A stretch of DNA of 64,000 nucleotides from Hypomesus transpacificus (Eukaryota; Chordata; Actinopteri; Osmeriformes; Osmeridae): assembly GCF_021917145.1 (NCBI RefSeq), contig NC_061075.1, positions 610,215-674,214 on the forward strand. Reading direction: 5' to 3'. Positions 3,801-55,579 of the stretch are shown here, piece after piece. A program made the translations under genes and the position numbers. Under the pieces are notes generated by a model. That model was not told where the DNA came from and did not search any database. It saw only the letters and a program-made list of their open reading frames with translations. The number at the start of each line of letters is the position of its first letter. The stretch's first letter is position 1.

Positions 3801-4921
3801 GGTGGTGATGATGATGGTGATGATGATGGTGATGATGACGGTGGTGATGATGACGGTGGTGATGATGACGGTGGTGATGATGACGGTGGTGATGATGATG
3901 ACGGTGGTGATGATGACGGTGGTGATGATGACGGTGGTGATGATGACGGTGGTGATGATGACGGTGGTGATGATGACGGTGGTGATGATGACGGTGGTGA
4001 TGATGATGACGGTGGTGATGATGACGGTGGTGATGATGATGGTGATGATGATGGTGATGATGATGGTGATGATGACGGTGGTGATGATGACGGTGGTGAT
4101 GATGACGGTGGTGATGATGACGGTGGTGGTGATGATGACGGTGGTGATGATGACGGTGGTGATGATGACGGTGGTGATGATAACGGTGGTGATGATGATG
4201 GTGGTGATGATGTTCTGCTGTTTCAGAGGAGAAGAAGGGCTCCCTGCAGGAGATGGCCAACCAGAGGGGGGTGGTGTGTCGGGCACAGGGCTGGAAGATC
4301 CACCTGTGTGCCGCTCAGCTCAGACAGCTGGTGAGTTCTGGGGTCATGTGGGGTCATGTTGCCCACGTTAGAGTCACAGCTGCTGCCTTGGATTGAAATC
4401 CCAGGTGAAAGGCCAGGTGTGTGTGTTGGGTTAGACCTGTAGTGTCTCTGACCTGTGACCCTGCCCCCTGTGACCCCCCCAGTCCAGTCTGGAGCATGAC
4501 GTGTACACCAGACTGACCACCCTGCAGGAGGGTCTCATCCCAAAGAAGAGGGCCGGGGGAGACGACGACCTGCACCGCATCAACGAACTCATACAGGTGA
4601 CTCCTTCCTGTTCACCACATCACTTCCTGTATCACTTCCTGTATTACTTCCTGCATTACTTTTCCTGTATTACTTCCTCTAAATGTCCTGCCGACCTCAC
4701 CATTGTCTGTACACTGTGTAAGATGTGCTTCTGAAGTGTTTGTGTGTGTGTGTGGTGGCCAGGGTAACATGCAGCGCTGCAAGCTGGTGATGGATCAGGT
4801 GACGGAAGCCCGAGACACCATGATGAAGGTGCTAGACCACAAGGAGACGGTTCTGAAGCTGCTGAATAAGACCACGGCCGTCAAGAAGTCCTCCAAGCTG
4901 AAGCGCAAGGAGCGGGCATAG
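838..4921 (+). CDS. sap130: Sin3A-associated protein 130, C-terminal part (partial gene)
   Basis: Subunit of the nuclear Sin3-HDAC co-repressor complex. Ten coding exons are readable: 838-956, 1052-1360, 1855-2032, 2149-2247, 2429-2790, 2935-3198, 3333-3458, 4227-4330, 4483-4596 and 4763-4921 (TAG at 4919). All have GT-AG borders and consistent phase, giving 611 codons against about 1,050 residues in the human protein; the N-terminal ~40% lies off the left edge. Diagnostic segments are QFQYFLPTY near the start, an IQPAPM-like repeat in the second exon, RPSILRKKPA, SPRKKPRKQQHVISTEE, RPRPPITLLRHYRNPWKAAY, and the conserved C-terminal block that ends SKLKRKERA. The C-terminal part is the region known to bind mSin3A. 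The exon at 2149-2247 matches an exon that I recall as alternatively used in mammals. The 768-bp intron before 4227 is almost wholly a GAT/GAC minisatellite. A tRNA-like SINE relic sits 26 bp upstream of the 1855 exon. Confidence 0.93.
1772..1828 (+). repeat. tRNA-derived SINE head (relic)
   Basis: A-box-like ATATCTCAGTGGTTGAGC is followed by a perfect B box, GGTTCGAATCC (1813-1823). The spacing is shorter than in an intact tRNA and no cloverleaf closes, so this is a SINE relic and not a tRNA gene. It abuts the polypyrimidine tract of the next sap130 exon. Confidence 0.5.
3570..4205 (+). repeat. GAT/GAC-based minisatellite in a sap130 intron
   Basis: About 635 bp of 15-bp (GATGATGACGGTGGT) and 12-bp (GATGATGATGGT) units with higher-order alternation. 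All units are multiples of three, so long open frames exist on both strands (poly-Asp/Gly on +, poly-His on -). These are by-products. The array lies inside the intron between the exons at 3333-3458 and 4227-4330. Confidence 0.95.
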
Positions 4922-4991: not shown

Positions 4992-5808
4992 AGTCCCCCC
5001 ACACACCCCTCACCCCACCTTGGGAGGAAGGAGAGAGCTGCTCTGAACTTGGTGCTAAGATTTGCTGCGCACAATCGCCTTCCTTATGTCCCTGCCTGAG
5101 GCTGGGCGGAGAGTATCCAGGGGCTGGCTGGCCGCCGTGTCCCCAGGAAGAGAGGGCATTGCTGGGGATACGGCCATCAGCAGGAGAGCCTCCGCTAACA
5201 CCGGACTGGCTGATTGGCTGATGAACCCCGACAGTTTTGTTTATTTTGTAGTTTTTTTTGGGGGGGGCGGGTTATGTTCCATAAAGACACTTGTTTTGTA
5301 GTTTTGAAAATACGTTTGTTAATGTTGCCTTTTCTTTCTTTCTGTGGAGGGATGGGGGATGGGATGGGGAGAGTGGGTAAGTGACAGTGGGCTGTGTGTC
5401 TCTGGTCAAGCTTCTGTGAGAGGGATGTTTGTGTGTCAGTGAAAAGATCCAGGCAGGCTTTGGTAGGGGTGTAGGACATCCCTGTTCAACACCTCCATGG
5501 CTACCATTCAACATGTAGAGGTTTGGCTCCTCTGTTGCCTCGGTGACACAACGACCTGACCACCCTAGACACAAGCTCTGATGTGATACTGACCCTCACA
5601 CTCACCACACACATACACGCCACACACACCCAAAAGGACACACACATGCCACACACTCATACACGTCAGACACGCAACCTCTGCTTATTTACCTGGTATT
5701 TATTTTAAACCATGTTATTCTTTTCAATTGACATGCCCATCGTAGACAAAATGATGTACCGGTAAGCAGTGCACGGCCAGTGTTCCTGTCAGGGTAGACT
5801 GGGGTTAC

Positions 5809-6310
5809 AGGCCTCTCTCTGTCTGCTGGGGGGACAGCCTCTCAGTCTGCGGGGGGGACAGCCTCTCTGTCTGCGGGGGGGACAGCCTCTCAGTCTGCTG
5901 GGGGGACAGCCTCTCTGTCTGCGGGGGGGACAGCCTCTCTGTCTGCGGGGGGGACAGCCTCTCAGTCTGCTGGGGGGACAGCCTCTCAGTCTGCGGGGGG
6001 GACAGCCTCTCAGTCTGCGGGGGGGACAGCCTCTCAGTCTGCGGGGGGGACAGCCTCTCAGTCTGCGGGGGGGACAGCCTCTCTGTCTGCGGGGGGGACA
6101 GCCTCTCAGTCTGCTGGGGGGACAGCCTCTCTCTGTCTGCGGGGGGGACAGCCTCTGTCTGCTGGGGGGACAGCCTCTCTGTCTGCTGGGGGGACAGCCT
6201 CTCTGTCTGCTGGGGGGACAGCCTCTCAGTCTGCTGGGGGGACAGCCTCTCTGTCTGCTGGGGGGACAGCCTCTCAGTCTGCTGGGGGGACAGCCTCTCA
6301 GTCTGCTGGG
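5809..6310 (+). repeat. 24-bp minisatellite (about 21 copies)
   Basis: Tandem units of the form TCTGCTGGGGGGACAGCCTC plus TCAG, with CTG/GCG and CAG/CTG variants. The unit length is a multiple of three, which gives stop-free frames on both strands with no real coding character. Each unit has a run of six or seven G. It probably lies in the sap130 3'UTR. Confidence 0.95.
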
Positions 6311-6723
6311 AGAGGTCTCCACAGCCTCCGCAGGACTCTGAAAGGCCCTGAGGTGAAGTGATCATCTGTAGGGCCTGTTAGTAGACACTGTCACAGTGTT
6401 GTGTCTGGACAGTGACAGTGACGGGGTGTCTGGATGTGTAAAGAATGGCGAGCAGGGGTTCACTTATAACATAAAGAAAACCTGCTTTGAATTGTCCAGC
6501 CATTGTAATGGGTATCATGGAGTAATTGATCACGAAACACATTTGATTTGGTTTAAAGAAGGCTGACAGTATGAGAGCGCGTGTAATTAGAACGCAAGAC
6601 TGTGTTTCAACGTAAAAGGCTGTACATGTGTGTTTCTTATTGTTTTTGTTGTTGCCATAGGCAACAGTACAGGCCTTTTCAAGTTTTGTACTGTGTGTGT
6701 GTGACGTGGCACTTCATCCCCAG

Positions 6724-6816: not shown

Positions 6817-6972
6817 GCCAATTCATGACTACAACACCTTGAAAATACCTTGTGGTCAATATAATGACTGAAATGATTCTCTTCCCTATGTGTGCAAGCG
6901 CTTTGTGGAGACGCTGTAGCACTGGGATAACTTGACCGTGTTAGCTGCACCAGTCACTGTTCTGCTCAGGAA

Positions 6973-7509
6973 GACCCTGACTCTCCTAGGACCAGCAGGA
7001 TCCACCCTGACTCTCCTAGGACCAGCAGACTCCACCCTGACTCTCCTAGGACCAGCAGACTCCACCCTGACTCTCCTAGGACCAGCAGGATCCACCCTGA
7101 CTCTCCTAGGACCAGCAGGATCCACCCTGACTCTCCTAGGACCAGCAGACTCCACCCTGACTCTCCTAGGACCAGCAGACTCCACCCTGACTCTCCTAGG
7201 ACCAGCAGGCTCCACCCTGACTCTCCTAGGACCAGCAGGCTCCACCCTGACTCTCCTAGGACCAGCAGACTCCACCCTGACTCTCCTAGGACCAGCAGGC
7301 TCCACCCTGACTCTCCTAGGACCAGCAGGATCCACCCTGACTCTCCTAGGACCAGCAGGCTCCACCCTGACTCTCCTAGGACCAGCAGGATCCACCCTGA
7401 CTCTCCTAGGACCAGCAGGCTCCACCCTGACTCTCCTAGGACCAGCAGGATCCACCCTGACTCTCCTAGGACCAGCAGGCTCCACCCTGACTCTCCTAGG
7501 ACCAGCAGG
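6973..7509 (+). repeat. 30-bp minisatellite (about 18 copies)
   Basis: Very homogeneous tandem units (GACTCTCCTAGGACCAGCAG followed by GATCCACCCT). Nearly all variation is at two adjacent positions (GA, AC or GC after CAG). Homogeneity this high suggests recent expansion or ongoing exchange. Each unit holds the palindrome CCTAGG. It lies between sap130 and myo7b. Confidence 0.96.
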
Positions 7510-8715
7510 GTTCTGCTGGACTCTGGAGCTGGGTGGTGGCTGCATCACTATAGTGTGTCTGTAAACAACTATCTGCTCCCTGAGTTAAAGCATAGTCTCA
7601 TGTTACAACCAGGACATTCTTATCCTCTTCTATTCTCAGATATTTACAGCATAATTGCCCTTCCTGTCAGTGTGTCAAGCCTGAGTTTATACCTCCCAGT
7701 GATGTCAGAGTCCAAAGTTTAGGCCGATAGTTTACTAAAACATTGTTCATGTAACGGAAATAAAAAAAAATGGTGGGAAAAGGAATGATCAAATAAAACA
7801 AATTAGAAAGTACATTTTTTCTATTTCGATGTTTTGTTGTGTTCAACAGGTCGACCAAACCCTCCCAGCCTGCTCTGCCCTTCTCCACAAGGCTGTTAGC
7901 AGGAGGAAGTAGGAGACCCTCCCTCCTCCCCCCCTCCTTCCCCCCTTCACCTGGGCGTAACCCCTGACCCCTGAAGGGTAGACCTGGGTGATCCTGCTCT
8001 CAGCAGAACAAGAGCAAAGTCAAACAGCCATAAACGTGTGCTGTGTTGGACTAGCCATCTGCTTCCTCGTTCAGAGCAGCTTTGGTGGATTACGAGTCCA
8101 GGCGCTCGCTGCGGACCGGAGCACAGGTTCTCCACAGCAAGAAACACCACAGGCTTTACACAGCAAGAAACACCACGGGTAATTTTAAGATCTGTATATG
8201 TTTATTGTTTGCACCTTCCTACCACAGTAAAATCTGTGTTTGTGTAAACCTACATGGCGAATAGACCAGATTCTGATTCTTCTAAACACCAAAAGGTGCC
8301 TGCGAAGGTGATGCTTCAAGGAATTCTGTGAAGCAGATGAGATTATCTTAAAACTGTTATAAAATTTCATTTATTATTTGTTTGTGCTCCCTCCATATCC
8401 TGTGAATGCTTATATTTGTGTGAGTTTGAAGTTGTATTTCTATGTTTTGAGGTCTACGTGCTTTTATGCAATAATTCATCTCCAAGGAAATTCCCAAGGC
8501 GAACATGTTTAATGGGGTTAATGATCTGATGAATGATCTTAATGGAACAGGGGTGGTTATGACACCAGAGACTGCTCTGTCTTATCCTTAGTGATTATCA
8601 TGTGGCCCTGGCAGTCAGGTGTCAGAATCAGGTTTACCATAACAGGGAGTGGCCTGGCAGTTTGTCTCTGAGTTATCACCCGCCATACGCTGATACCCTT
8701 GTTCCTGACTTGCAG
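7510..8715. other. sap130-myo7b intergenic region
   Basis: No supported exon. It ends at the acceptor TTGCAG (8710-8715) in front of the first coding exon of myo7b, so part of this stretch is an intron or leader of that gene. A short direct duplication (CAGCAAGAAACACCAC) occurs at about 8135-8176. Confidence 0.55.
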
Positions 8716-11700: not shown

Positions 11701-14700
11701 ATGACTGGTGGGAGATCTCCAAGCTGCTGGCCGCCATCCTTCACCTCGGCAACATGGCCTTCGAAGGTCTGGCGCTCCTTGTCCTTTACTGTGGGAAAAC
11801 AGCAGCTTGTCTCTGCTGAACTCTACTGTACTCTACTGCAGTGCACTGTACTCTACTGCACTCTACTCTACTCAGCTAACCTCCAACCTTTCTTTCATCC
11901 TTCCAGCCACCATCTCGAATAACATGGAAAGCTGTGAAATCCTCCCCTCCTCTCATTTCACTGTGGCCAGCACTCTACTGGAGGTAAACACATCACTTCA
12001 GATTTCCCTCAGGCTTGTGCATACAGACGGTGGGGTGTTTACATTTACATTTAGTCATTTAGCAGACGCTAAATGACTCTTATCCAGAGCGACTTACAGT
12101 AAGTACAGGGACATTCCCACCGAGGCAAGTAGAGTGAAGTGTGTCCCAAGGACACAATGTCATTTGGCACAGCCGGGAATCAAACTGGCCACCTACTGAT
12201 TACTAGCCCGATTCCCTCACCGCTCAGCCACCTGACTCACCTGCCTGGGTGTTGTAGAGCTGCATCCTATAAACAGCCACTGGGCTGACAGGTGGTGGTG
12301 TGTGTTGTGTGCAGGTGGACCCTAGGGCCCTGGAACAGAGCCTGATCCAGCGCTCCTTCATGACCACCAAGGAGAGTGTCACCAAGCCCCTCACCTCCGC
12401 CCAGGCTCTCGATGGCAGGGACGCCTTCGTCAAAGTAACACTCGGCAGGATGTTACACTGGAAGGACTAGTAGTAATGTTAAGGGATTCTATATCATTGT
12501 GATTCTTTGATGCCTTCCTCCTCGTCCAGGCTATCTATGGGAGGCTGTTTATCTGGGTTGTTGACAAGATCAACAGCGCCATTTACAAGCCCCCACCCGA
12601 TGACGCCAACTACATCCGTCAGTCCATCGGCCTGCTCGACATCTTCGGCTTTGAGAACTTCAAACACAACAGGTCAGCGTTGCTGTCGAGGTCGTAGGTT
12701 TCTTTATACCCACTTAAAAAAATGACAAATCTGCCCCCCCCCCCCCACACACACACACACACACACTTTTTGTTAACAAAATAATATTTAACAAAGCCTC
12801 GGTTATAACTATATCTCAGTGTTTCTCAAAGCCCTGACCTCTCCCCCTCTCTCTCTCCCTGCCCAGCTTCGAGCAGCTCTGCATCAACTTCGCTAACGAG
12901 CAGCTGCAGCAGTTCTTTGTGAAGCACATCTTCAAGCTGGAGCAGGAAGAGTACGCTCGTGAGAACATCGTCTGGGAGCTCATCCAGTTCAAGGACAACC
13001 AGCGCACCCTGGACGTGTTGGCCAACAAGCCCCTCAACATCCTGTGTCTCATCGACGAGGAGAGCCACTTCCCCAAGGTCGCCAGGCAGACGCCATCCTG
13101 CCCCGTCTCATGCGTCCATCTGACTGACTAACTGAGTGGAAAGTTGTTTGTGTGTTTTAATCTTCTTCTTCTTTGGTTCCTTAGGGCACAGACACCACCA
13201 TGTTGCTTAAGATCGGCAGCAACCACGACAAGGGGGACGTGTACTTGCCTCCGAAGAACAACCACGACACGACGTTTGGGATCCAGCATTTTGCCGGCGT
13301 GGTGCATTACGAATCCAAAGGTTTGTTATGAAGATGACTAACATGGCGGGTTTCACTCTCTTTTTTCAATTTATCAAATGTTATCGATCAGCTTGATTCA
13401 TGTATGGATTTTTTATAAAAATTGTGTTAAATATACTTATAGTTTTCCCCAATACCAATACTATTTGCATTCTCTCACCTCCCATCAACATTTCTTCTCC
13501 CCACCTCCCTGTCTGTGGACATCTGTTCCTGCTTCCTGTCCCTGCTTCCTGCTTCCTGCTTCCTGCTTCCTGTTCCTGCTTCCTGCTTCCTGCTTCCTGT
13601 CCCTGCTTCCTGTTCCTGCTTCCTGTCTCAAGGGTTCCTGGAGAAGAACAGGGATGCCCTCAGCGCCGACCTCATCCAGCTGGTGGATACGTCCTCCAAC
13701 AAGCTCCTGAAACAGGCCTTCAAGAACGAGCTGACATCCGGCACCATCATCAACACCACCAACCCCAAGCTGATGATCACACCCAAGAACTCTCTCAGGG
13801 TCAGACAGAGCGTCATCCTCGCTCCAGTCTTGGGGTGTTCAGGGGAATTAGTAACAGGAATATTCATCTAACATACTTCCCTCTTGGTTTTCTCTGCATC
13901 TCATTCCAAACCGTCTCTCTCTCCCTCTTCTCTCTCTCTCTCTCTCTCCCCCTTCCCTCTCTCTCTCTTCTCTCCCTCCAGCAAGCAACAGATAAGAAGC
14001 GTGTTCTTACGTTGAGTGGTCAGTTCCGTCAGTCTCTGGACGCTCTGATGAAGACCCTGACAGCCTGCCAGCCCTACTTCATCCGCTGCATCAAACCCAA
14101 CGACTTCAAGAAACCCATGGTCAGTCAGCACGTTCACACACCATACAGGACTGACTGCTAATGTGGAGAAACTTCTGTACTTTATAGTTACTCTTTGGGC
14201 CCACATATTTGGTCAAACAGTGCTTGTGTGTGTGTGTTAGCTGTTCGACCGGGAGCTGTGTATTCGGCAGCTCCGCTACTCTGGGATGATGGAGACCATC
14301 AGGATCAGGAAGGCAGGCTACCCCATCCGCTACACCTTCGAAGAGTTCATGGAGCGCTACCGCGTCCTGCTCCAAACCTCCGTCTGCGAGCCCAGAACGG
14401 TGAGCAGGGTCTGACCCTCTCCCGTGCCCCTGGAGAACCCTCCACACCTCACACACCTGTCTGAACACGTCTGTGTCTGAACACCATGTGCTCAGTGTGT
14501 TCCCCTGTTCAGAGAGAGTTATGTTTCCCACACAGCAAACCACACAGAGGTGCTGTGAGAGTATCTGTGAGAATATCCTGATGGAGGGAGACTGGAAGAC
14601 TGGCAAGACCAAGATCTTCCTCAAGGTGGGGTTCTCTGTTCACAACCCTGAACACACACACACACACCCCTGAACACACACACACACACCCCTGAACACA

Positions 14701-16597
14701 CACACACACAACCCTGAACACACACACACACACACCCTGAACACACACACACACAACCCTGAACACACACACACCCCTGAACACACACACACCCCTGAAC
14801 ACACACACACCCCTGAACACACACACAACCCTGAACACACACACACACACACCCCTGAACACACACACACACAACCCTGAACACACACACACACACCCCT
14901 GAACACACACACACCCCTGAACACACACACACCCCTGAACACACACACACCCTGAACACACACACACCCTGAACACACACACACCCCCTGAACACACACA
15001 CACACCCCTGAACACACACACACACCCCTGAACACACACACACCCCCCTGAACACACACACACCCCTGAACACACACACACCCTGAACACACACACCCCC
15101 CTGAACACACACACCCCCTGAACACACACACACCCCTGAACACACACACACCCTGAACACACACACACACCCTGAACACACACACACACCCCCTGAACAC
15201 ACACACACACCCCTGAACACACACACACCCCTGAACACACACACACACACCCCTGAACACACACACACCCCTGAACACACATACACCCCTGAACACACAC
15301 ACCTCCCTGAACACACACACCCCCTGAACACACACACACCCCTGAACACACACACACCCTGAACACACACACACCCCTGAACACACCCCCCCCTGAACAC
15401 CCCCCCCCTGAACACTCTCCATCTCTCCAACTCATACCTTGTGTCCTCCCAGGACTTCCATGACACCATGCTGGAGGTGGAGAGAATGAAGGAGTTGAAC
15501 AAGAAAGCTCTCCTGATCCAGAAGGTTCTTCGTGGATACAAGTTCAGGTCTGGCCTGGTCGTTCCAGCTGTGCTGCTCTGGATGATTCATTACTATATCG
15601 TCTGTTCTGTATAGCTTGGAACTGATTCTTACTTTACTATATAGCCCGTTTCTTACTGTATAGAAGTTTGTGTTTAACTGCTTGACTCCAACAGGAAGAA
15701 CTTCCTAAGGAAGAAGGCCTCTGCTTTGGTTATTCAGAAACACTGGAGAGGACACCAGGGCAGGAAGCTATACAGAGTGGTGCGTCCACAAGCCCTGACT
15801 GAGTCTGCAAACAGACACACAGCACGCCGGCCATGACACACTTACCCACTCTATCTAACTCTATATCTACACTACAGACAATGTATATGAGTTTGTTTCA
15901 CTGCACTGTTTAAGCATGGAAACCAATCATTTCATGACCTCATCTCTTGGTCTCTCTGCTGTGTTGGTGTCCTGTCTGTGTCTCTCTCTGTACAGGTCCA
16001 GCTGGGCTTCACACGCCTGCAGGCGCGGGTGCGAGCACGCCAGCTGCGGCACAGGTACGAGCAGCAGAGGGTTGCGGTGGTGGTGCTGCAGGCGCGGGCG
16101 CGAGGCTGCCTGGCCAGGAGGGCGTGGACCTGGCAGAGGCAGGCGGTGGTGCTGCTGCAGGCCCACACCAGAGGCATGCTGGCCCGCAAGACCGTACACA
16201 AGATGAAGAGAGATGTACGGCCTGCTCTTTGTGATAGCTCAATGACTGCGTGTGTGTGTGTCTGTGTGTGTAGGTGCTATATTCAGTATAAAATGATGTA
16301 TAAATCCTGTGTCTAACCCTGTTCCTCAGGTTTGTTTAACAGTTCCTCCCCCTCCTCCCACCAGGCCTTCCTGTCTGCCAAGGAGCGGCGAGATGAGGAG
16401 CTGGCCAAGATGGAGCGACAGAGACGCCTGGAGGAAGTACTCAGGCAGAAACGCCAAGCCTCCAGCCAATCAGAATCCATCACGGACCAGGAAATGGNNN
16501 NNNNNNNNNNNNNNNNNNNNNNNNNNNNNNNNNNNNNNNNNNNNNNNNNNNNNNNNNNNNNNNNNNNNNNNNNNNNNNNNNNNNNNNNNNNNNNNNN

Positions 16598-16673
<76 letters not shown>

Positions 16674-19600
16674 ACACGGAGAGGGAGAGGGAGAGGGAGA
16701 GGGAGAGGGAGAGGGAGAGGGAGAGGGAGAGGGAGAGGGAGAGGGAGAGGGAGAGGGAGAGGGAGAGGGAGTGTGTAGTGGCATGCAGAGGAACAGATAA
16801 TGAACCATTACTCTGGGGGACAATAACAGCTCTGTGATCTTCTCTGAAATCAGTTCAACAGTGAGACAGCTGGTACACACACACACACACATCATTAACG
16901 GTTTGGGAAAAAATCCCCTGTACGGGTGTAAGACCTTGTCTGTTGGAGGGCCTTGTGGGCCTGCTCTGGAGAGGCTGCGCTGCATCAAGGTCTTGTTGTT
17001 CTAGTCTGATAAAGCAGTGCTGAATAGTGATGATCTGTTCCCAGTGGAAGGTGACTCCTTTCCAGCTCTGATAGAGGGGGTTTGTCATTAGAAAAGACGG
17101 AATCTCTCACACTCAGCCCTGTTCTGATGGGTCTAGTGGTGTGTTGACTAACGTGGTGTTGTCATGTTGTATTGTGTCTTAATGTGGTGTCACGTTGCCG
17201 TGGTGTCGCGTTGCCGTGGCGCTTCAGGACGGACCCCAGGAAGCTGCCCCCCCACCAGGTGGAGGTGGACGCCATCGAGCAGAACAGCGCCCAAATCTTC
17301 CACAAGGTCCACTTCCCCAACGACACGGAGGAGGTGAGCTGCACACCTGGAGGAACAGCATACCTGTCAAAGCTCAACGTTCAGGAGCGCAGCAACATTT
17401 AGGAGCTCAGCAAATCGAGCGTTATTTTCATATCCCTTTTGACACTTGCTACCTTTGTATAGCCCTCAACAGAGGGCTTTGTAGATGCACATACAGCTAG
17501 ACCTAGACCAGCCTAGAACAACACTCATCATCATACAGCTAGACCTAGACCAGCCTAGAACCACACTCATCATCATACAGCTAGACCTAGACCAGCCTAG
17601 AACCACACTCATCCTCACACAGGAGTGTGGCAGTATTCAGCAGCTCCTCAGCGCTCAGTAACGATGTGTCTCTGCTGTGCTGGGCAGGTCTTCGAGGTGG
17701 CCACCGGCACCAGGATCAGAGACCTGGTTCAGACCATCTCCTCCAAACTCATGCTGGCCTCCGCAGACGGCTTCAGCATCTTCGTGAAAACACCCGACAA
17801 GGTTGGACTGCCGTAGGACGAAACGTCCTGGTTTCTTGCATTTTTACCAATTCCTGTCAGGTTGTTAGTTTGAATGGCTTTCGAACATTTGTCTGTTGTG
17901 CCTTGTGTGACAACATCCTGTCATGGTTTCTTTTGGCCTCTTGCTCATCCAGGTTCTCAGTCTGAACGAAGCGGACTACTTCTTTGACAGCCTGAGGCAG
18001 ATCACTGACTGGTCCAAGAAGGTCAAGACCACCAGGGAAGGTCAGTGAGCCTCATGCCTATGGAACGCCACTGATACTAACGACCCTGGGAACTGACCCG
18101 CACACAATCCTCTCTGTGTGTGTGTGTGTGTACTGGTGTGTGTGTTCTAATGTGTGTGTGTGTGTGTGTACTAGTGTGTGTGTGCTAATGTGTGTGTGTG
18201 TTCTGCAGGAGGGCTCAACAACATCTCCTACATGGTGTTCTTCATGAGGAAGCTGTGGTTCAACGTGATCCCAGGGAGAGATCTCCAGGCTGATCTGATC
18301 TTCCACTACCCTCAGGTACCACCCTGCAGGCCGGCTGCCTCCCTCACACACGCTGGCTGTTGGGGAACAAGCTCTTTGGTCTAGCGGTAGATGTGGGGTT
18401 CTCCGTGTGCTGCTCCAGCAGTCGAGAAGTGTCATGCAGGGTTTGTCTCTCCAAGCTTGCAAAGCTTGCTTCCAAACTTGGCTCCAAGTCACACATCTGT
18501 TAGCAGTCCATCATTCATCCCAGTGGCTGTTTAGGGGGGCTAAGATCTGACATGAGTAGAACTTCACTTCTCTCCACAATCTGCAAAAAGAGAACAGAAA
18601 AAGGGTTAATTTAAATTAGATATGACCATGCTAGCCTGTTCTGTTAGCACAGCCTGTTCTGTTAGCACAGCCTGTTCTTTTAGCACAGCCTGTTCTGTTA
18701 GCACAGCCTGGTCTGTTAGCACAGACTGTTCTGTTAGCACAGCCTGGTCTGTTAACACAGCTTCTGTTAGCACAGCCTGTTCTGTTAGCACAGCCAGCCT
18801 GTTCTGTTAGCACAGCCTGGTCTGTTAGCACAGCCTGTTCTGTTAGCACAGCCAGCCTGTTCTGTTAGCACAGCCTGGTCTGTTCTGTTAGCACAGCCTG
18901 GTCTGTTAGCACAGCCTGTTCTGTTAGCACAGCCAGCCTGTTCTGTTAGCACAGCCTGGTCTGTTTGCACAGCCAGCCTGTTCTGTTAGCACAGCCAGCC
19001 TGTTCTCTTAGCACAGCCTGTTCTGTTATCACAGCTTGTTCTGTTTGCACAGCCAGCCTGTTCTGTTAGCCGAGCCTGTTCTGTTATCACAGCCTGGTCT
19101 GTTTGCACAGCCAGCCTGTTCTGTTAGCACAGCCTGGTCTGTTAGCACAGCCTGTTCTGTTAGCACTGGGACCTGAAGTGACCCTGCTTCGCCCTTCTCT
19201 CTCCTGCCCTCTCTCCTGCCTCCCTGCCCTCTCTCCTGCATCCCTGCCCTCTCTCCTGCCTCCCTGCCCCCTCTCCTGCCTCCCCGCCCTCTCTCTCTTC
19301 CAGGAGCTACCTAAGTACCTGCGGGGCTACCACCAGGTGTCCAGGGCAGACATGATAAGCATCGGCGCCCTCCTCTTCAGGGTGAAGGCCAGCAACGACC
19401 CGGCCCAGCTCCCCATGATCCCCAAGATGCTGAAGGAGCTGGTGCCCAACGACCAGCTGAAGGCCATGTCTGCAGACGAGTGGAAGAAGGTAGGAGATAC
19501 GGTGCGAGGGTAGGAGACAAGGTGTTAGGGTAGGAGACAAGGTGTTAGGGTAGGAGACAAGGTGTTAGGGTAGGAGACAAGGTGCTAGGGTAGGAGACAA

Positions 19601-24810: not shown

Positions 24811-25339
24811 GTCTTGTGACTGGCTGTGCTGGGCTCAGAACTCTGCTGCTCAGTCAGATGAAGATTCAGACAACACATGCACTTCCTTCCAGGGTTCCGC
24901 ATCTGATACGACTGCTGTGAATGTTCCTCTGCTCCATGTCTACTGGTGTCTACCGCTGCAGCTAAGCCTCAGCCTGCATGGGGCACACATGTCCTGTGAG
25001 CTACTGGGGCATCACTATTATTAGTCAAACAGACTAATACAAGAGTGTTTAAGTTTGGTAAATCATCTTCAAATGTGACCTTTCGCATACAGGAAGTAGT
25101 AGATTATTTAAAGAAGCACTTTGCCTTCAGCTCAAAGAGTGTGACAGGTTGTGGTGTAAGTGTGTAACATCTTTCAGCTGTCACATTCTCAATTTCCTTT
25201 AGAAGCACTCAGAGAATTTGAATCAATACAATCTTTACTCCACTCCCCTCCTTTCCTGTTCTCTCGACGCTACTCAGCTTCACTTCTCTACTGTCCTGTA
25301 CTCTCCTCTAAAAGCCTCTCTCGCCTTCTCTTCCCAGTG

Positions 25340-26377
25340 ATGACCGTGGAGTCCAGTACCCTGGGGGTGCCCACCTCCCCCCTCCTGCCCTCCAACCTGT
25401 CGTCCCCAGACTGCCCCCCCACTGAGAGCTCTGTGGAGGACCTGCTGTTCGGAGGCTACTACATCCTGGTGTTCCTCCTGGCGCTAAGCGGGAACAGCCT
25501 GGCTCTCTGGGTCTTCTCCCGGCAAAGGGCCACTTCCTCTCCGGCCAACGTGTTCCTGCTGCACCTGGCGGTAGCTGACCTGTCCTATGTCATCGTGCTT
25601 CCCCTGAGGGCCACGTACCACCTGGCCGGGGGACACTGGCCCTTCGGAGAGGTTCCTTGTCGCCTGGCTGGCTTCCTGTTCTACGTCAACATGTATGCCA
25701 GCCTGTTCTTCCTGGCGTGCGTGGCGGGGGACCGCTACCTGGCCGTGGTGCACGCCGTGCGCTCTCTCAAGGTGCGCCGCGCCCGCACCGCCCACATCAT
25801 CAGCTTCTCCCTCTGGGCGCTGGTGACCGTCTCCATGGCGCCCCTGCTGGTCACCCGGCAGACGGTGGAGGTTGCCGGGGCGACGGTTTGTCTGCAGCTG
25901 TACCGTGAGAAGGCGTCGCGCCGCGCCCTGGTGTCCCTGGCCGTGGCATTCACCCCGCCCTTCCTCGCCACGCTGTCCTGCTACCTGATGCTGGTCCACA
26001 GCCTCCGCAGGGGGTCCCGTCTGGAGCCGTCCCTGCGGTCCCGCGCCCTGTGCACCATCGGCCTGGTCATGCTCATCTATGTGGTCTGTTTCCTGCCCTA
26101 CCACGTCAGCAGGGCCACCTTCATCCTGGGCTACGCACACCCTGACGTCTCCTGCAGCGCCCGGCGAGGCCTGGCACTGGCCAACCGCCTGACCTCCTCC
26201 CTCACCTGTCTGAACGGGGCGCTGGACCCCCTGGTCTACCTGCTCGGGGCAGAGAAGTTCCGTGGCACGCTGACTCGGCTGCTGTGTAGAGAGACGGCGG
26301 CAGCGGCGTCCGGAGGGACCAGCGGAGACCTGAAGGGAACGCATGACAGCTCTCTGAGTGCCAAGTCAGAGTTCTGA
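25340..26377 (+). CDS. gpr17: GPR17-type class A G-protein-coupled receptor
   Basis: Plasma-membrane receptor related to P2Y and cysteinyl-leukotriene receptors; in mammals it marks oligodendrocyte precursors and restrains their maturation. The coding sequence is one exon of 345 aa (short human form about 339). I chose the ATG at 25340 because a strong acceptor, CTTCTCTTCCCAG, ends at 25337, two bases before it; the longer upstream frame is intron. Visible features: an N-glycosylation site at N19 (NLSS), TM1 with GNSLALWVF, TM2 with LAVADLSY, the TM3 end GDRYLAVVH (DRY), the ECL2 block VCLQLYREKASRRALVSLAVAF, TM6 with CFLPYHV and TM7 with NGALDPLVYLL in place of NPxxY. The tail ends DSSLSAKSEF, close to the human SLSAKSEL ending. 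It lies downstream of myo7b on the same strand, as in human 2q14.3. GC content is high and there is no sign of damage. Confidence 0.93.
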   Translation: MTVESSTLGVPTSPLLPSNLSSPDCPPTESSVEDLLFGGYYILVFLLALSGNSLALWVFSRQRATSSPANVFLLHLAVADLSYVIVLPLRATYHLAGGHWPFGEVPCRLAGFLFYVNMYASLFFLACVAGDRYLAVVHAVRSLKVRRARTAHIISFSLWALVTVSMAPLLVTRQTVEVAGATVCLQLYREKASRRALVSLAVAFTPPFLATLSCYLMLVHSLRRGSRLEPSLRSRALCTIGLVMLIYVVCFLPYHVSRATFILGYAHPDVSCSARRGLALANRLTSSLTCLNGALDPLVYLLGAEKFRGTLTRLLCRETAAAASGGTSGDLKGTHDSSLSAKSEF

Positions 26378-29130: not shown

Positions 29131-32100
29131 ATGTGTTCTTATCAACCGTGGCACCATAGCAACATCACTCGCTCCAACGCCGAAGACCTCCTCTCCAAGG
29201 CAGCGCGGGATGGCAGTTTCCTCCTCAGAGACAGTGAATCCATAGTGGGGGCCTACGCTCTCTGTGTGCTGTGAGTAAACCTACCGGCTGTCCTCTTCTG
29301 GGGGGGGGGGGGGGGGGGGGGGGTACGCTGAGCAGGAAGAGTTCAGTTTGTTAAGGATCCTCTTTACGTGTTCGGAGCTCTTAGTGGTTTGGACGCCTTG
29401 GCCCACCTCTGAGTCTTCACATCCAGGAAGGATGGCTTTTCTTTTGACATCATTTACATGCAGCTCCAGTTAACTCCAGTTAACGGTTTGTAGAAGACAA
29501 TGGGGTTGTTAGTCTTTTAAGACTAAATGAGATTAGAAGTTTTTGGAGTTTGCAAACGATTCAAGCTTATGGGCTACTGTGAAAAGAGATTGTAGACATT
29601 TCGGAAAGTGTTCTGTAACCAAATTGCAAACTGTGAGTTTCACGACTCTGTGCTTCAGTTTGTCAGAGCTGCTCCAAAGTGTCTCTGAATGCTTCCTACA
29701 CAGCTAAACTCATGACTGTGTAGCTAGATAGCTTCATTTGAATAACCCACACACACCAAAACACGTTTCAGCTGTGTGAACCTTAGCTGCAAATGCTCGC
29801 TTTTGTATTGAGGCTGTTTGTGTAAACTGGAGGGAATTAAGGGGTTTGTTTTAATCTTGATCGGCTGTATAGCCTGACAGATATGCAGCTCTTGTTCTCG
29901 TCAGCTGAAGAACACTGGTCCAGCACTGAACACTGGTCCAGCACTGAACACTGGTCCAGTACTGAACACTGGTCCAGCACTGAACACTGGTCCAGCACTG
30001 AACACTGGTCCAGTCCAGCTGATGTTTCTTCTGTCCCCAGGTACCAGAACTGTGTGTACACATATAGGATCTTACCAAATGAAGAGAAGAAGCTCTCTGT
30101 TCAGGTGGGTTTGAGAATACTGCAGCTCTGGTCAGGTATTGGCCCCTAGTCTTAGCCCTAGCCCCCAATTTCTGCAGCTCTGGTCAGTCAGGTCTCAACA
30201 ATCTCCACTCTGTGAAGGAATCTATTAGCAGGTGTTCAGGAAGCTGCTTAAAGCTGCATGTTATGCCTCAAGCACCAAACTTCTGCTTTTATTTTTCATT
30301 TCATCAAAAATAAGAAGGCTGTTGCTCAGCCCATACTGCCAATGGTGAGGGTACAGGGTGAGGGTGCAGGGTGAGGGTACAGGGTGAGGGTACAGGGTGA
30401 GGGTACAGGGTGAGGGTACGTGGTGAGGGTACGTGGTGAGGGTACAGGGTGAGGGTACAGGGTGAGGGTACATGGTGAGGGTACAGGGTGAGGGTACAGG
30501 GTGAGGGTACAGGGTGAGGGTAAGTGGTGAGGGTACAGGGTGAGGGTACAGGGTGAGGGTACATGGTGAGGGTACAGGGTGAGGGTACAGGGTGAGGGTG
30601 CAGGGTGAGGGTACAGGGTGAGGGTACGTGGTGAGGGTACAGGGTGAGGGTACAGGGTGAGGGTACATGGTGAGGGTACAGGGTGAGGGTACAGGGTGAG
30701 GGTACAGGGTGAGGGTAAGTGGTGAGGGTACAGGGTGAGGGTACAGGGTGAGGGTACAGGGTGAGGGTACGTGGTGAGGGTACAGGGTGAGGGTACAGGG
30801 TGAGGGTACATGGTGAGGGTGCAGGGTGAGGGTACAGGGTGAGGGTACAGGGTGAGGGTGCAGGGTGAGGGTACAGGGTGAGGGTACAGGGTGAGGGTAC
30901 ATGGTGAGGGTACAGGGTGAGGGTACAGGGTGAGGGTACAGGGTGAGGGTAAGTGGTGAGGGTACAGGGTGAGGGTACAGGGTGAGGGTACAGGGTGAGG
31001 GTACGTGGTGAGGGTACAGGGTGAGGGTACAGGGTGAGGGTACATGGTGAGGGTACAGGGTGAGGGTACAGGGTGAGGGTACAGGGTGAGGGTGCAGGGT
31101 GAGGGTACAGGGTGAGGGTACGTGGTGAGGGTACAGGGTGAGGGTACAGGGTGAGGGTACAGGGTGAGGGTGCAGGGTGAGGGTACAGGGTGAGGGTACG
31201 TGGTGAGGGTACAGGGTGAGGGTACAGGGTGAGGGTACAGGGTGAGGGTACATGGTGAGGGTGCAGGGTGAGGGTACAGGGTGAGGGTACAGGGTGAGGG
31301 TACGTGGTGAGGGTACAGGGTGAGGGTACAGGGTGAGGGTACAGGGTGAGGGTACGTGGTGAGGGTACAGGGTGAGGGTACAGGGTGAGGGTACAGGGTG
31401 AGGGTGCAGGGTGAGGGTACAGGGTGAGGGTACAGGGTGAGGGTGCAGGGTGAGGGTGCAGGGTGAGGGTACAGGGTGAGGGTACAGGGTGAGGGTACAT
31501 GGTGAGGGTACAGGGTGAGGGTGCAGGGTGAGGGTACATGGGGGAGGCAGATTACTGGTAAAGTGTGACACCAACTGTTTATTCTGTTTTTAAGGGGACA
31601 GTGGGAGGACTGATGCGTCCGGTAACAAGTCCTCCATTGTTAGACTGTAAACAATCTGTTTCTGTGTGTTGGTAGTGAAGTCATTATCATAGTGCTACTT
31701 CCTTGTTGGAATTGTTGCCATTCATTTAGGTTATTTGGATAGAAAAACGTAAAGTTTAAACAATCATTTTCTTCAGTTAATCCCCCACAAAAAATTAAAC
31801 ATTTCAGCTGGATGGGATAAGGAAACCAGCTGACGTGTTATTGAAGGAGCTTAACCACAGGGGAATGTCAGAGAACAGCTTATGGGTGGTGTTCTGGGTG
31901 AGGAGGACTAACACACCCAGACTGTCTCTCCCAGAGCACCAGGGAGTCTAACCTGCAGCCGTGTGTCATTGGTTCCTCCAGGCTTCTGAGGGAGTCCCCA
32001 TCCGCTTCTTCTCCATGCTCCCGGAGCTTGTTGAGGCTTACTACAGCCCCAACATGGGCCTGGTGACACACCTCCAATACCCTGTCCCCAAGGAGGAGGA

Positions 32101-44339: not shown

Positions 44340-45770
44340 TGTTTTTCATGAATTACTTTATTTTCACAGAGTAAAAAAACAAAACAGGGAGACATTACAG
44401 AGGTGAGCAGAAGAGGTTAGGTAAACCAACATGACCACTTTGAAAATATCCCTTTTTATATGAAACCGCTACAGCTTTAGCTTGACTGATAGTACCGTGC
44501 CAGTTAAGTCCATGTTAAATGTTTATAAATCCTAACCTCTTCAGTCTGTTTAGGGAGTTGTACTACAGTTGCATTTCCTTGATCTGAACTTCTTTACCCA
44601 AGAAACACTCAAATTAATACATAGAAATCCATTACCTTTTATTTTACATTCATACATCTAAGATTGTACAGTTTAATGCAGTAGAAAAAGCCTAATCCAA
44701 AACTAAATCCAGAAGATTTGAGGTTGAGCGATTATGATTTGCACGGTTTAAGGTTGGAGACAAGCATTTTAAAAAATATACACCCAAACACACACACCCC
44801 CAAAGAAACCTTGGACACGTAACGTCATGAAGCTGTACCTTAACAGGAAGCCTGAACATAAAGGTATCCAGCCACCTGATAGAAAGGCACATTAAGTACA
44901 CAGTGTATGTACAAACACAATTTTGGACATTTATACAACTTCACTTTAGCTTCTAGAACGACAAACTGTAAACCTTCACTTACCAAAAAAGGAAACTAAA
45001 ACAAAACCACATCTATACAAATACGTTTGAAGTCAAATATCTTCTTGGTCATACCAAAGCAGAAATGCATATTTCAACATTTAATCATAGATTGGCTCTG
45101 CCAGCAGAGAGCAACCTAATAGATATTACACATTGTCACGATATTTATGCAGTTGCCCGGTTCATGAACGTTAACTATTGGCAACAGTAGTAATGAATCA
45201 TGCATTTCTTCCACTTCAAAGAGCAGCAGTCATTCTCTTCATTTCAGCCACTTAATTTACCAATTAAGTTGTCAAATTTTTGCTCAGTTTTTTCCTCACT
45301 TCGAAAGTGGCAACTCGACATGGTATCACATGTAGACAGAAAATGTCTTAAATTCTATATACAGCCAAATCTTCCGTTACCTTAAAATATAGTACCACCC
45401 TTCAATCAAAATTTTCAAATACTTTCAGAAAAAGTTAGTTCTTTTATATAAAATACTTCATCCTCAAAAACTGGATTTTTCCTCTTTACATTCCATCCTT
45501 TAGTCAACAAAATAAAGCTTTATATTACGTACCTTCAAAGCTTCAAAACACTGCCGGCATAATTATATATTTATATCTATATAGAAACAATAAAGTGACT
45601 AAGATACCAGATGTGGTTCTATGTTCACATGTTGAGGAAACCCGTGTACTTAGCGCATACTGCCCATGTATCCCATCAAATCAACACAGTGTGGCACTAC
45701 AGTTTTGGATGATTGTACGCAGTGGGGGTCTTTGAATGCCGTGGTCAATATGGCTGCCCTCCTTTGCCAC
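44340..45770 (-). other. bcl6 3'UTR
   Basis: AT-rich, non-coding sequence between the bcl6 stop (45771) and its poly(A) signal. It has several ATTTA motifs on the minus strand, typical of unstable mRNAs. Confidence 0.55.
44357..44362 (-). promoter_or_regulatory. Poly(A) signal AATAAA of bcl6
   Basis: TTTATT on the + strand, so AATAAA on the bcl6 strand. It gives a 3'UTR of about 1.4 kb (45770 down to about 44340), AT-rich and free of coding sequence, as is usual for BCL6. Confidence 0.6.
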
Positions 45771-51234
<5,464 letters not shown>

Positions 51235-51360
51235 CTGGTAGCGCTTTCCTAGAAACTTCTTGCATCACCACTTCTAAGAACCCCAGTTCTAAGAATCAGA
51301 CGAGCTCAATTCTCGGAATTTGAGCCTGCGACCATACCATTTTCCGAGGGCTGGGTTGAG
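51235..51360 (-). other. bcl6: bcl6 5' non-coding exon, highly conserved
   Basis: Read on the minus strand, the segment 51325-51240 closely matches the human BCL6 5'UTR as I recall it, including CTCAAATTCCGAGAATTGAG, GATTCTTAGAACTGGGGTTC, TTAGAAGTGGTGATGCAAGA and AGTTTCTAGGAAAG. The exon ends ACCAG with donor GTGATT at 51234. Near-identity in a non-coding exon between fish and mammals is exceptional. The start of transcription (high-coordinate end) is not determined. Confidence 0.75.
51246..51318 (-). promoter_or_regulatory. Four TTCNNNGAA (BCL6/STAT) sites in the bcl6 leader
   Basis: TTCCTAGAA at 51246-51254, TTCTAAGAA at 51272-51280 and at 51287-51295, and TTCTCGGAA at 51310-51318 (+ strand spelling). 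TTCCTAGAA is the BCL6 consensus; all four fit the STAT (GAS) palindrome. Human BCL6 represses itself through such sites in its first exon, so this is a probable autoregulatory module. Confidence 0.7.
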
Positions 51361-53092
51361 CAGGGTTTTTCAAAAAGTTAACATTCCAGCTCTCTCGAAT
51401 TTAAATTTCAATCTATAGTATACATTACACGTTTATAAACACTTGTGAAGAAAGTGAAATGTTGAATACATTTTAAAAACACATTATTTTCCACGATTAT
51501 GGGAGAAATATACTGTGGTGGGAATAGATTCACCCTCTTTTTGGAACCGTCCATTCTAGACAATCACGTGGGCAGACGAGCTGGCTTAACAACCAATACC
51601 CTGAGCCGAGGATCCGAGATTCTCAGAACTAATTTACTATTCAATGACATAAGCAACGTATCCATTCGTTGTGTTTCCCCTGTAATAAACTCACTGGCAA
51701 AGCCTGCCCACAACACATTACTGGAGCAGACTCGGACACGGTTATCCTAGACCTATGTGAAATTATGAATTTTTGTTTCTCCTGCAGAGAAGGGCTCAAA
51801 TACGCTATTCCTGTTTTGTATCTTCATTTCTGTGGATTGCTGGTAAATCATCGTGGGTTTGTTTTTGGAAAGGCTCTCTCATCCAAGACTCGATTGGAAA
51901 CGCAGTAATTCGGCTATAGTGCCTTTTGAAAAGTTGTCAGTTTTATGTGATAAAATATGTTTCTGGCAGGCTGGACGCCCGCCGTGTGTAGTCTAGCATC
52001 TTGACTATGTGAATGCAGTTCAAGAACATGATGCCATTCGCGGTATTGCATTTCTCGAGGCAACTTTACTAAATGAATTAACTCGTCTTAAACCTCTGTG
52101 TTTTCGGTGTTCCATCTTGATCAAAATCGGAATAGGCTATTGCAACCTATGAGGTTACAAAATACAGCTATTGTAGTATGCTATAAAGTAACCTAAAGTA
52201 ACCTATAAAGTAACCGATTTATAGCGAATTGTCGTGGGCCAAAACGTACTGCCTGGAGAAGGCTGCTTAAATAAATAAAGGTGAACTTAACCTTTAGGCT
52301 AACCTCGTCTTGTATTTCCCGTTCTATAGGTTAGTTCAGTTTTGGGACAACAAGCAGAGGCCTGTGCCGTGGCAGACTTCCACTGCCCAAAGTAGGCTAC
52401 CGTTTTGAATTCTGACATGTTTTATGTAGCTGTTTCATATGTCAGGTGTCAAGGCCAAGTCCCGGAGCAGCTGTTTGTCACTGGTCCGACACGAGGCCCT
52501 CGCACAACGTCGCACATAATCGGACTGTCCCTTTGAGTGAACGAGAAAATGAAAGTTAATGTCTATTTTAATTTCAGTCACTGATTAAGATTACATTAAC
52601 CGCTCCTCAGCATTGGTAGCCTACGCTACACTGTCTAACCGGATGGGTAGGTTACTCAACATGAACGTAATTTCCCATAGGCTATTGTAGGCACAATTTC
52701 TTTAATACAGTTTGAGCCAATTAACTGACTTTAAACAGTAGCCAGCGTAGGCCTATTTAAGATACAGTGCTTGTTTGTGCGGTTTGGCCTATTACATTGT
52801 AAACGGCTTTTCTTGGTGGCGAATTAAATTTTTGCGTTATAAACAAACCCAACATGGGCAATAAACAGCCGATCTTGAAAAGGTTTAAAGCACACACGCC
52901 AACGTCCTAAATTCTGAGCAATGCTAAGCGCACGATCTTTCCACAAACATAATACCCTTCCAAGTTGGGTTACTTTGGGCAGCTCATTTAGTTATAACAT
53001 TTCCTCCTTAGACACATTTCGTTTGGGGAAGCCTGTGCTTCTGAGTCTGTGAAACTGAGGTGTTATTTCTAAACGAACACCTATTAAAAGTG

Positions 53093-53130
53093 ATATATAT
53101 ATATATATATATATCATATATATATATATG
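53093..53130. repeat. (TA)n palindromic microsatellite
   Basis: Two (TA)n runs separated by TC, giving a self-complementary stretch that could extrude as a cruciform. Confidence 0.9.
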
Positions 53131-53601
53131 ACTGAATATTTCTATAAATATTTACGTTGATTGACACTAACGCATAGCTCTCATTTCCAGTTAGCAAATT
53201 CCAACAGTAGATGAATACGGTATTAAATGGCAGATGGTTTATTTAGGATACTTCAGTACCTAATAAACACAAGCTTCTTTAAGTGAGTGTTCAAGGATTC
53301 TGATCATGACTTGAAGCTGTAGGTGTGAAGGAGTTCATCGTGCTACTTGTCGAGTTTAAATGTTGTCTTTCCAGACTAACTGGCTTTAGTAGTAAAAAAA
53401 ACGGAGCTCTTTTAATTATAACTTCACCTCAGGTTTCTTGATGTCAGTTGTAAATTGACATTTCTTTTTTTCTTTTTCTTATTTTCTTCACTGGCCGCTT
53501 GGCACAGTTCTCATTGAATTAAGAGATTAAGAGCAGGAGGAGATGGATGTAATGTTTGTGTTCCTCCAGTTAACAGTTATGCTGCCACAAGGCCCGTCAT
53601 A

Positions 53602-53696
53602 CTAACCCAGGGGTTGTTTGTGCTGGTTCCAGACCAGGGCCTGGCTGTCCTCTCGCATCCGATTCGCTCCCTGGTACAGGAGGAGCATGTGCTGGG
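53602..53696 (-). other. Possible terminal exon upstream of bcl6
   Basis: On the minus strand the acceptor CATTTGTCTCCTCAG is followed by an open stretch that includes QHMLLLYQGANRMREDSQAL, with a TAG at 53604-53602. Base composition is richer in G+C than the surroundings. No partner exon or known family was recognised; it could be a non-coding RNA exon or chance. Confidence 0.2.
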
Positions 53697-54264
53697 CTGA
53701 GGAGACAAATGTGGAGACATGAATCTTGGTTGAGAGTTCACCCAAAGCAAAGTGCAGGCCTAGCATTGATCTGGTGTGACACATCAATTTGATGAACCTG
53801 GACTTATTAGTCCTTAATTAGTTTTGATGTCTGCAGTATGCGTGAACTATTTTTTTATTTAAAGCTGCACTATCTATTGATTACATATATTCTGGATTCA
53901 AGTGTTTCAAAATATCAATAAAACGGTCTTCAGAATTTAAATAAGTTGTTGTTAGTTTTCTTGATCGTATGTATTTTTGGGGGACATAAAGGGTAATCTA
54001 GCAAACTCAGTAACGTGTTGTGTGTTAATTACAGTGGTGTGCCTTAAACTGTGTAACAGTCTTGTTCTGCAGGTGAATTACAATGTTGTACTTTTTCCTG
54101 TCAGACACACAAGCACGACTCCCAAAGGTAGTGATGTCACTCAAGTCTTTGTGAGCTTCTGTACCCAAAACAGATTTTTTTTGTGTTCTTGCTGTTTGAA
54201 ACAGCTATACCCAATTCTGAGGTAAACGCAGAGGTGAACACCAGTGAAGACAGGAAGGCCTGTT

Positions 54265-54274
54265 CTATAAATAG
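54265..54274 (+). promoter_or_regulatory. CTATAAATAG, MEF2 or TATA-type motif
   Basis: Perfect YTAWWWWTAR match in a locally G+C-richer island, some 2.9 kb upstream of the bcl6 leader exon. A second MEF2-type match, TTATTTTTAG, is at 57051-57060. Confidence 0.3.
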
Positions 54275-55579
54275 TCCGCCTGTGCTCCGCCTCACTCACG
54301 ATGTGTGGGCTCATCTTTGAGAGCAGAGGTTACACAGGATGTCAGGTGATTAAGAGTGTCTGCTTTTTTCCATCTCTGAAAAACGTGTACAGGCAAGATT
54401 TACCAGTACCTGTGGGAATTTCGCTTTGCATTGTCTTTAGCCTACTGTCAAGTGTGTTTCATTACCAAAGCATTGAGGCAGTGAAGGGCTCAGTCTGATT
54501 CTACTGCGCTCACAAGTGAATGACCTACATACTTTGAAAGCCTTTGGGGAAGATCGTATCAACCCCTGCTCTGACTGACAAGTTTTTACTGTTCCCATTA
54601 TTTAAATTATCATAGAAAGTGAATGTGGGTTAACAATAGACGACCAGGAAAGGAATATTTTAGGTACACACATCTGAGAAGCATTAACTCAGATGTGTGT
54701 ATGAGAGTAACTTTGGTTAAAATTTGTTTTGTAGAAACATTTTAACTTTTGAAATACTTTCACCTAAGGTCAATCAGTTTTGACAGATGTTTCTCGTGGA
54801 AAATCATTGGCTTCAATTATTGTTTCAATTACAATTTATGCACATTTTATGGTCAGAAATTAACCTGGGCCTTGACTTAGATTACCATTTTGAACTGTGG
54901 ACATATTCCTAATCTTATTCATTTGGGATAATTATTCACCTTTGACTCCTAAACTTGCAACCCCAACTGATGCAGGATGTTATCTAAATAAGTTATGTTG
55001 AAAGAAAGAAGTATGTTTGTAAAGTTTAAAAGTTTGAATAGTTTGCTTGAATCAATGTTAGCCATCATTTCAGAAGGAGTTACTGTTTACCTTCCCCACC
55101 TCTGTTGAAGAGGCATGTGATTATGTTATAATGTAAACGATTTCTCCCTCCGGAAGCTGTGCGCTTTCCTCCCGTCTTCAATGATGTCCCAACACCGCGC
55201 CCCAGGTGTTCACAAACCAAGGGGGAAGAACGTCTCCAAAATAATTAAAACGCACGCTTTTACAACAAGCTTCAATTCAGCCAAAGAAAGACTATGTTGG
55301 GCTCCAAACAAAGAGCAACGTCAACTTTATTTCAATCCACTTGGGGGATGTTTTAGGCGCTCCAGAACTGTTATGCATAATGCACAGCCATAAACCCATC
55401 CAGGAGTTTGGAGAGAGATGTGTAATTTACTCAGGCCCCATGCTGGGCCAGGCTACACAAGGATGAGATAATTACTGCAAAACCTTGGCAAACTTTTACT
55501 AAACCAATTCCCAACAAAAATAAATGACCCACTTACGGAGGCTGGAGAGTGTGGATCCAACGGAGACCAGCTGATCAAT

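Follow-up and report, generated by a model that had tools for sequence, protein, structure and literature searches.

The 64,000-nt stretch of the Hypomesus transpacificus genome analysed here (GCF_021917145.1, NC_061075.1, positions 610,215-674,214 of the forward strand; hereafter the window) carries a bcl6 gene on its minus strand. The BTB part encoded by the first two coding exons of this gene scores 220 bits (E 3e-65) against plain chains of human BCL6, which is also the closest solved structure for this part of the product. On the same strand as the coding exons, 2.2 kb upstream of the first of them and just before a splice donor, lies an array of four short palindromes (Table 1).

Table 1. 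Features at the 5' end of the window bcl6 gene, in gene order; positions are those of the window and sequences are given for the gene strand (-) unless marked +. C10 is the contig that carries the second bcl6 gene.
Feature	Position	Strand	Remarks
Conserved block (3' part of leader exon and first intron bases)	51225..51349	-	78% identical to the C10 copy
Conserved stretch CCTCGGAAAATGGTATGG, 5' of the array	51332..51349	-	17/18 columns same in C10
Site A	51310..51318	-	TTCCGAGAA (TTCTCGGAA on +); same in C10
Site B	51287..51295	-	TTCTTAGAA (TTCTAAGAA on +); same in C10 and in printed human oligonucleotide
Site C	51272..51280	-	TTCTTAGAA (TTCTAAGAA on +); TTCTCAGAA in C10; same in printed human and mouse oligonucleotides
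ATG in C-D spacer, within TGGTGATG	51263..51265	-	in frame with main BCL6 start, given a direct splice from leader to coding exon
GAAGTTTC inverted pair, overlapping site D	51252..51259	-	same in both copies
Site D	51246..51254	-	TTCTAGGAA (TTCCTAGAA on +); TTCCAGGAA in C10; same in printed mouse oligonucleotide
Putative 3' end of leader exon (last base 51235; GT donor 51234-51233)	51233..51235	-	context CAG/GTGATT (slash at the junction), same in mouse oligonucleotide (PMC4667269)
bcl6 first coding exon	48831..49002	-	acceptor AG at 49004-49003, main ATG at 48991; splice sites by inspection

Elsewhere, the window contains an exon of a SAP130-like gene (2454-2903, +), a myosin head exon (13400-14161, +), and an open single-exon frame of 405 amino acids encoding a rhodopsin-family receptor (25160-26377, +; Pfam 7tm_1). 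Long arrays of short repeats (3460-4371, 5769-6365, 6886-7564, 14509-15541 and 30261-31574) are open in several frames and give rise to spurious ORFs, and a run of N within 16309-16988, representing an assembly gap or a withheld stretch, lies beside a GA-rich simple repeat.

A leader exon ending at 51235 would be used in the bcl6 mRNA of this species, to judge from the donor and from the exon layout in zebrafish. Non-coding exon(s) have been reported in the proximal promoter region of zebrafish bcl6 (PMC9650189), and the oligonucleotides printed there, decoded here, make the GLFY-starting exon that follows the first coding exon exon 3, a numbering that leaves room for just one leader exon, spliced straight to the coding exon. 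Human and mouse oligonucleotides lying in the leader serve for RT-PCR, so the segment is present in mature mRNA in mammals. The preliminary description had taken it for a bcl6 leader exon with four BCL6/STAT sites, an identification borne out by the minus-strand bcl6 orthologue, the position of the array before the donor, and the link to the human locus provided by PMC3759668 and PMC7288929.

A second bcl6 gene, whose coding exons were located on contig C10, scores 188 bits against human BCL6 over its BTB part; judging from this lower similarity, the window gene is probably bcl6aa and the C10 gene bcl6ab, both of which are present in zebrafish and torafugu (PMC9650189). On C25 lies a further relative, regarded as bcl6b because it is less similar (60% and 46% in two pieces). 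Approximately 101 kb past the end of the window, a LIM domain is encoded at C16:775637-775801 (+). It has the orientation of LPP beside BCL6 and is at most a candidate for that gene.

The four-site array

The array consists of four exact matches to TTCNNNGAA within 73 bp (51246-51318), designated A to D in gene order and separated by 14, 6 and 17 bp in the window and by 14, 5 and 17 bp in the C10 copy. All eight sites of the two copies have the form TTCYNRGAA, the STAT5 form of the palindrome; of the remaining 14 TTCNNNGAA matches in the window, 4 do. Site D also has the exact BCL6 consensus, TTCCTAGAA. Upstream of site A by 310 bp, at 51620..51628 (-), is a fifth palindrome of STAT5 type, which reads TTCTGAGAA on the gene strand. 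It has no counterpart in C10, where no TTCNNNGAA match occurs in the 3 kb before the array. Between the array and this fifth site, the CCTCGGAAAATGGTATGG stretch includes a strong-context ATG, from which a uORF runs for 14 codons (51340-51296), or for 24 codons in C10, and represents unexplained conservation lying beyond the four sites.

The overall number of TTCNNNGAA matches in the window is at chance level (18, against a chance mean of 18.5), but their clustering is not. When the window, stripped of N, was dinucleotide-shuffled 1000 times, the densest 73 bp held at most one site in 730 cases and at most two in 270. Three sites were reached once, and four never, when the local 2 kb were shuffled 20000 times; the four palindromes noted in the preliminary description are therefore unmatched in either set. 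The genome (437 Mb) was scanned for a pattern of three sites separated by 8-20 and 4-8 bp, the only gaps considered; this gave 13 matches, compared with 10 in a backward control, and such a near-control count means that the pattern by itself is not diagnostic. Once the matches at C1 and C26 are set aside as short tandem repeats (a judgement by eye), the pattern occurs on both strands solely at the two bcl6 loci, which amounts to four sites.

Conservation between duplicates and with mammals

The leader block of the C10 gene (C10:3118247-3118369) is identical to that of the window in 98 of 125 columns, and the differences are unevenly placed. All 24 half-site columns are the same in both copies, as are 10 of the 12 palindrome-centre columns, where both changes still fit TTCYNRGAA; the spacers agree in 26 of 37 columns. 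Of the flanking parts of the block, the one 5' of site A agrees in 24 of 32 columns and the one 3' of site D in 16 of 21. Half-sites are thus better conserved than spacers (Fisher p = 0.002, for columns that are not independent), and palindromes kept while spacers drifted in two fish duplicates point to the bases that matter. The C-D spacer and the 5' stretch nevertheless show conservation beyond what bare sites need.

Outside the block, the best local alignments scored 27 over 1.5 kb of upstream sequence and 25 over 1.4 kb of intron, which lies within what 50 shuffles gave (maxima 30 and 28). The outcome that the preliminary description named as speaking against it, identity no better than in the flanking intron, is thus not what the two copies in this genome show. 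The C10 array retains its four TTCYNRGAA palindromes while containing no site with the exact BCL6 consensus, TTCCT(A/C)GAA. At bcl6b, no significant match to the block was obtained in the 20 kb searched on C25 (best E 1.8), of which 16.6 kb lie upstream of the first coding exon; these 16.6 kb contain four TTCNNNGAA matches, two of them 253 bp apart, and no cluster. An exact 25-base core of the element had no match in either viral or prokaryote collections.

Identity with mammals was measured on oligonucleotides printed in papers, those from mouse being assigned to that species from the context of the paper. Human oligonucleotides are identical to the window at 21/21, 18/18 and 22/25 positions, the first and last of these jointly covering 43 positions, 40 of them identical. 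Among the mouse oligonucleotides, one matches at 22/22 positions, a second at 15/20 (the first 14 are the same, followed by divergence), a primer running from the donor into the intron at 15/22 (the first nine bases, CAGGTGATT, are the same), and a cDNA oligonucleotide across the exon end at 11/20, ungapped. The C10 copy matches the same oligonucleotides less well (human, 16/21, 15/18 and 19/25; mouse, 18/22, 13/20, 13/22 and 10/20). Mammalian identity is therefore high up to approximately 51244, after which a differing stretch (5 bases in the fish and 8 in mouse, by eye) leads to a CCAG shared at the exon end. The exon had been described as near-identical to the human one, which is accurate on the printed oligonucleotides up to this point, and not for the exon end. 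Together, the oligonucleotides span sites B, C and D, with site A and four bases between C and D lying outside them; the segment with site A presumably resembles mammalian exon 1 as well.

A putative docking element and its alternatives

We regard the array as probably (with a probability of roughly 0.8) orthologous to the regulatory element in exon 1 of human BCL6, that is, a switch at which STATs and BCL6 would dock. Four palindromes in transcribed DNA just past the promoter would offer docking common to phosphorylated STAT dimers and BCL6, and the B-C and C-D spacings would suit STAT5 tetramers. Once bound, STAT5 or STAT6, or BCL6 with corepressors, would lower bcl6 transcription; BCL6 output would be set jointly by cytokine signalling and BCL6 level, and STAT3 could compete and activate. 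What the sequences show directly is that the sites exist and are clustered, that both duplicates have kept them, and that printed mammalian oligonucleotides and the mammalian donor match. For H. transpacificus, binding by STATs and BCL6 and the ensuing repression would follow by extension from the mammalian literature.

In that literature, STAT6 binds GAS sites at the BCL6 promoter/exon 1 in human lymphoma cells and represses BCL6 (PMC3759668), and STAT5 both represses BCL6 and displaces STAT3, an activator, from a site that the two share (PMC6087715). What STAT5A and STAT5B do at BCL6 has been called controversial, activation having also been reported (PMC6087715; likewise PMC3759668). STAT5 tetramer sites are described with a main peak at gaps of 11-12 bp and secondary peaks at 6-7 and 16-17 bp (PMC4990345). 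Measured against these, the B-C and C-D gaps of the window fall on peaks, the C-D gap of C10 falls on a peak while its B-C gap is off by one, and the A-B gap is off-peak in both copies.

The alternative that fares best holds that negative autoregulation by BCL6 is the main cause of conservation, the STAT sites being incidental through motif overlap. It is a possibility to be taken seriously, although we consider it the less probable account: site D agrees exactly with the BCL6 consensus, in the window and in the printed mouse oligonucleotide alike, but a single clean BCL6 site leaves the retention of four unaccounted for, and the C10 copy keeps four STAT palindromes with no exact BCL6 consensus among them. 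STAT binding is consequently no worse an explanation of the constraint than autoregulation, and as to which of the two sets it, the C10 sequence favours the STATs. Autoregulation through exon 1 has been reported for human BCL6, together with BCL6 ChIP using a primer that lies inside the block conserved here (PMC7288929). The ancient BCL6 feedback loop envisaged in the preliminary description thus stands in part, the element being old and site D matching the consensus, whereas feedback is neither the sole nor, on the evidence of C10, the best-marked constraint.

Less likely is a composite element in which a heat-shock factor, acting at GAAGTTTC beside site D, would render bcl6 stress-inducible. 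We take GAAGTTTC to be heat-shock-element-like, and it is the same in both copies; it comprises just one inverted pair of GAA units, and its overlap with site D partly explains its conservation. Induction of BCL6 through an HSF-1 stress response is noted in a review (PMC11507070), but no paper joining BCL6, HSF1 and heat shock elements emerged from a literature search.

Slightly less likely again is conservation of the segment for translation, in which case the array ATG would start a uORF or else, in fish, a Bcl6 with an N-terminal extension. The ATG is in frame 0 with no intervening stop in both copies when the acceptor judged best by eye is used, the predicted extension in C10 reading MNEVSRKVLQDSDS-MASTAEGC, and its surroundings, TGGTGATG, are unchanged in both copies and in the printed mouse oligonucleotide. 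Direct splicing would agree with the single leader exon implied by the exon 3 numbering in zebrafish (PMC9650189 oligonucleotides; the paper itself speaks of 'non-coding exon(s)'). The frame is nevertheless open to the main ATG from only one of five AG acceptors tried in the window and two of six in C10, and the seven mismatches in 31 nt, albeit only seven changes, are distributed 2/2/3 over codon positions 1/2/3, with no coding signature. We rate a protein role for the array ATG low, since these changes show no codon bias. In human, an additional leader exon presumably closes the frame from this ATG.

More doubtful still is a dual reading, in which the DNA would act as STAT/BCL6 switch and the mRNA would encode a Bcl6 extended by 14 N-terminal residues, the frame having been maintained in the two duplicates from the teleost genome duplication onwards. 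If this were so, the leader exon inserted in mammals would have made the same ATG a uORF, and changes in site D would alter transcription and the protein N terminus together.

A conserved RNA structure in the 5'UTR is very improbable: the palindromes are able to pair, as in a hairpin at site A of the window copy, but the two copies fold into different structures, their fold z-scores are +0.65 (window) and -0.21 (C10), with 146 and 80 of 200 shuffles folding as well or better, and positions 45000-55000 contain no Rfam match at gathering scores, so the suggestion of an RNA-level function finds no support from structure. Finally, a chance cluster, which the window-wide number of palindromes would allow, is for practical purposes refuted by the shuffles and by the presence of the same array upstream of the coding exons of the C10 duplicate.

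Relation to known elements

The human BCL6 promoter/exon 1 region has four known STAT sites and one described as new (PMC3759668), and its GAS sites alpha, beta/gamma, delta and epsilon likewise form a TTCNNNGAA cluster at an untranslated first exon; they are likened here to fish sites A to D as a cluster, and not site by site. As in the fish, a fifth GAS site lies upstream in human (PMC3759668), a likeness of position that does not imply homology. Where printed oligonucleotides cover the sites (B and C in human, C and D in mouse), these are the same as in the fish; human differs from it at 3 of 43 compared positions, and mouse differs at the exon end. Among teleosts, a review mentions, with no sequence given there, a zebrafish bcl6 promoter with almost identical tandem tetrameric STAT5 sites (PMC11507070), which very probably represent the same element. 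Among the matches listed in searches on fish conservation, made largely in papers outside subscription journals, and in PMC11507070 and PMC9650189, nothing appeared on bcl6ab beyond the existence of the gene. The titles listed in a search on BCL6 and upstream ORFs showed no BCL6 uORF, and the in-frame ATG was not among the matches listed for either subject.

The element governs a lymphoma oncogene, and B-cell malignancies commonly carry mutations in this non-coding exon of BCL6 (PMC11507070). The two fish copies suggest that STAT docking, besides BCL6 feedback, holds this exon in place. The fish array occupies the same place as the exon 1 element through which BCL6 negatively regulates itself (PMC7288929); unlike that element, the C10 copy lacks an exact BCL6 consensus and retains the STAT palindromes. 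The array is thus a known control element, and a very old one: its novelty is limited to the retention of the array in C10 and to the in-frame ATG, and the remainder confirms what is known from mammals and the remark on zebrafish.
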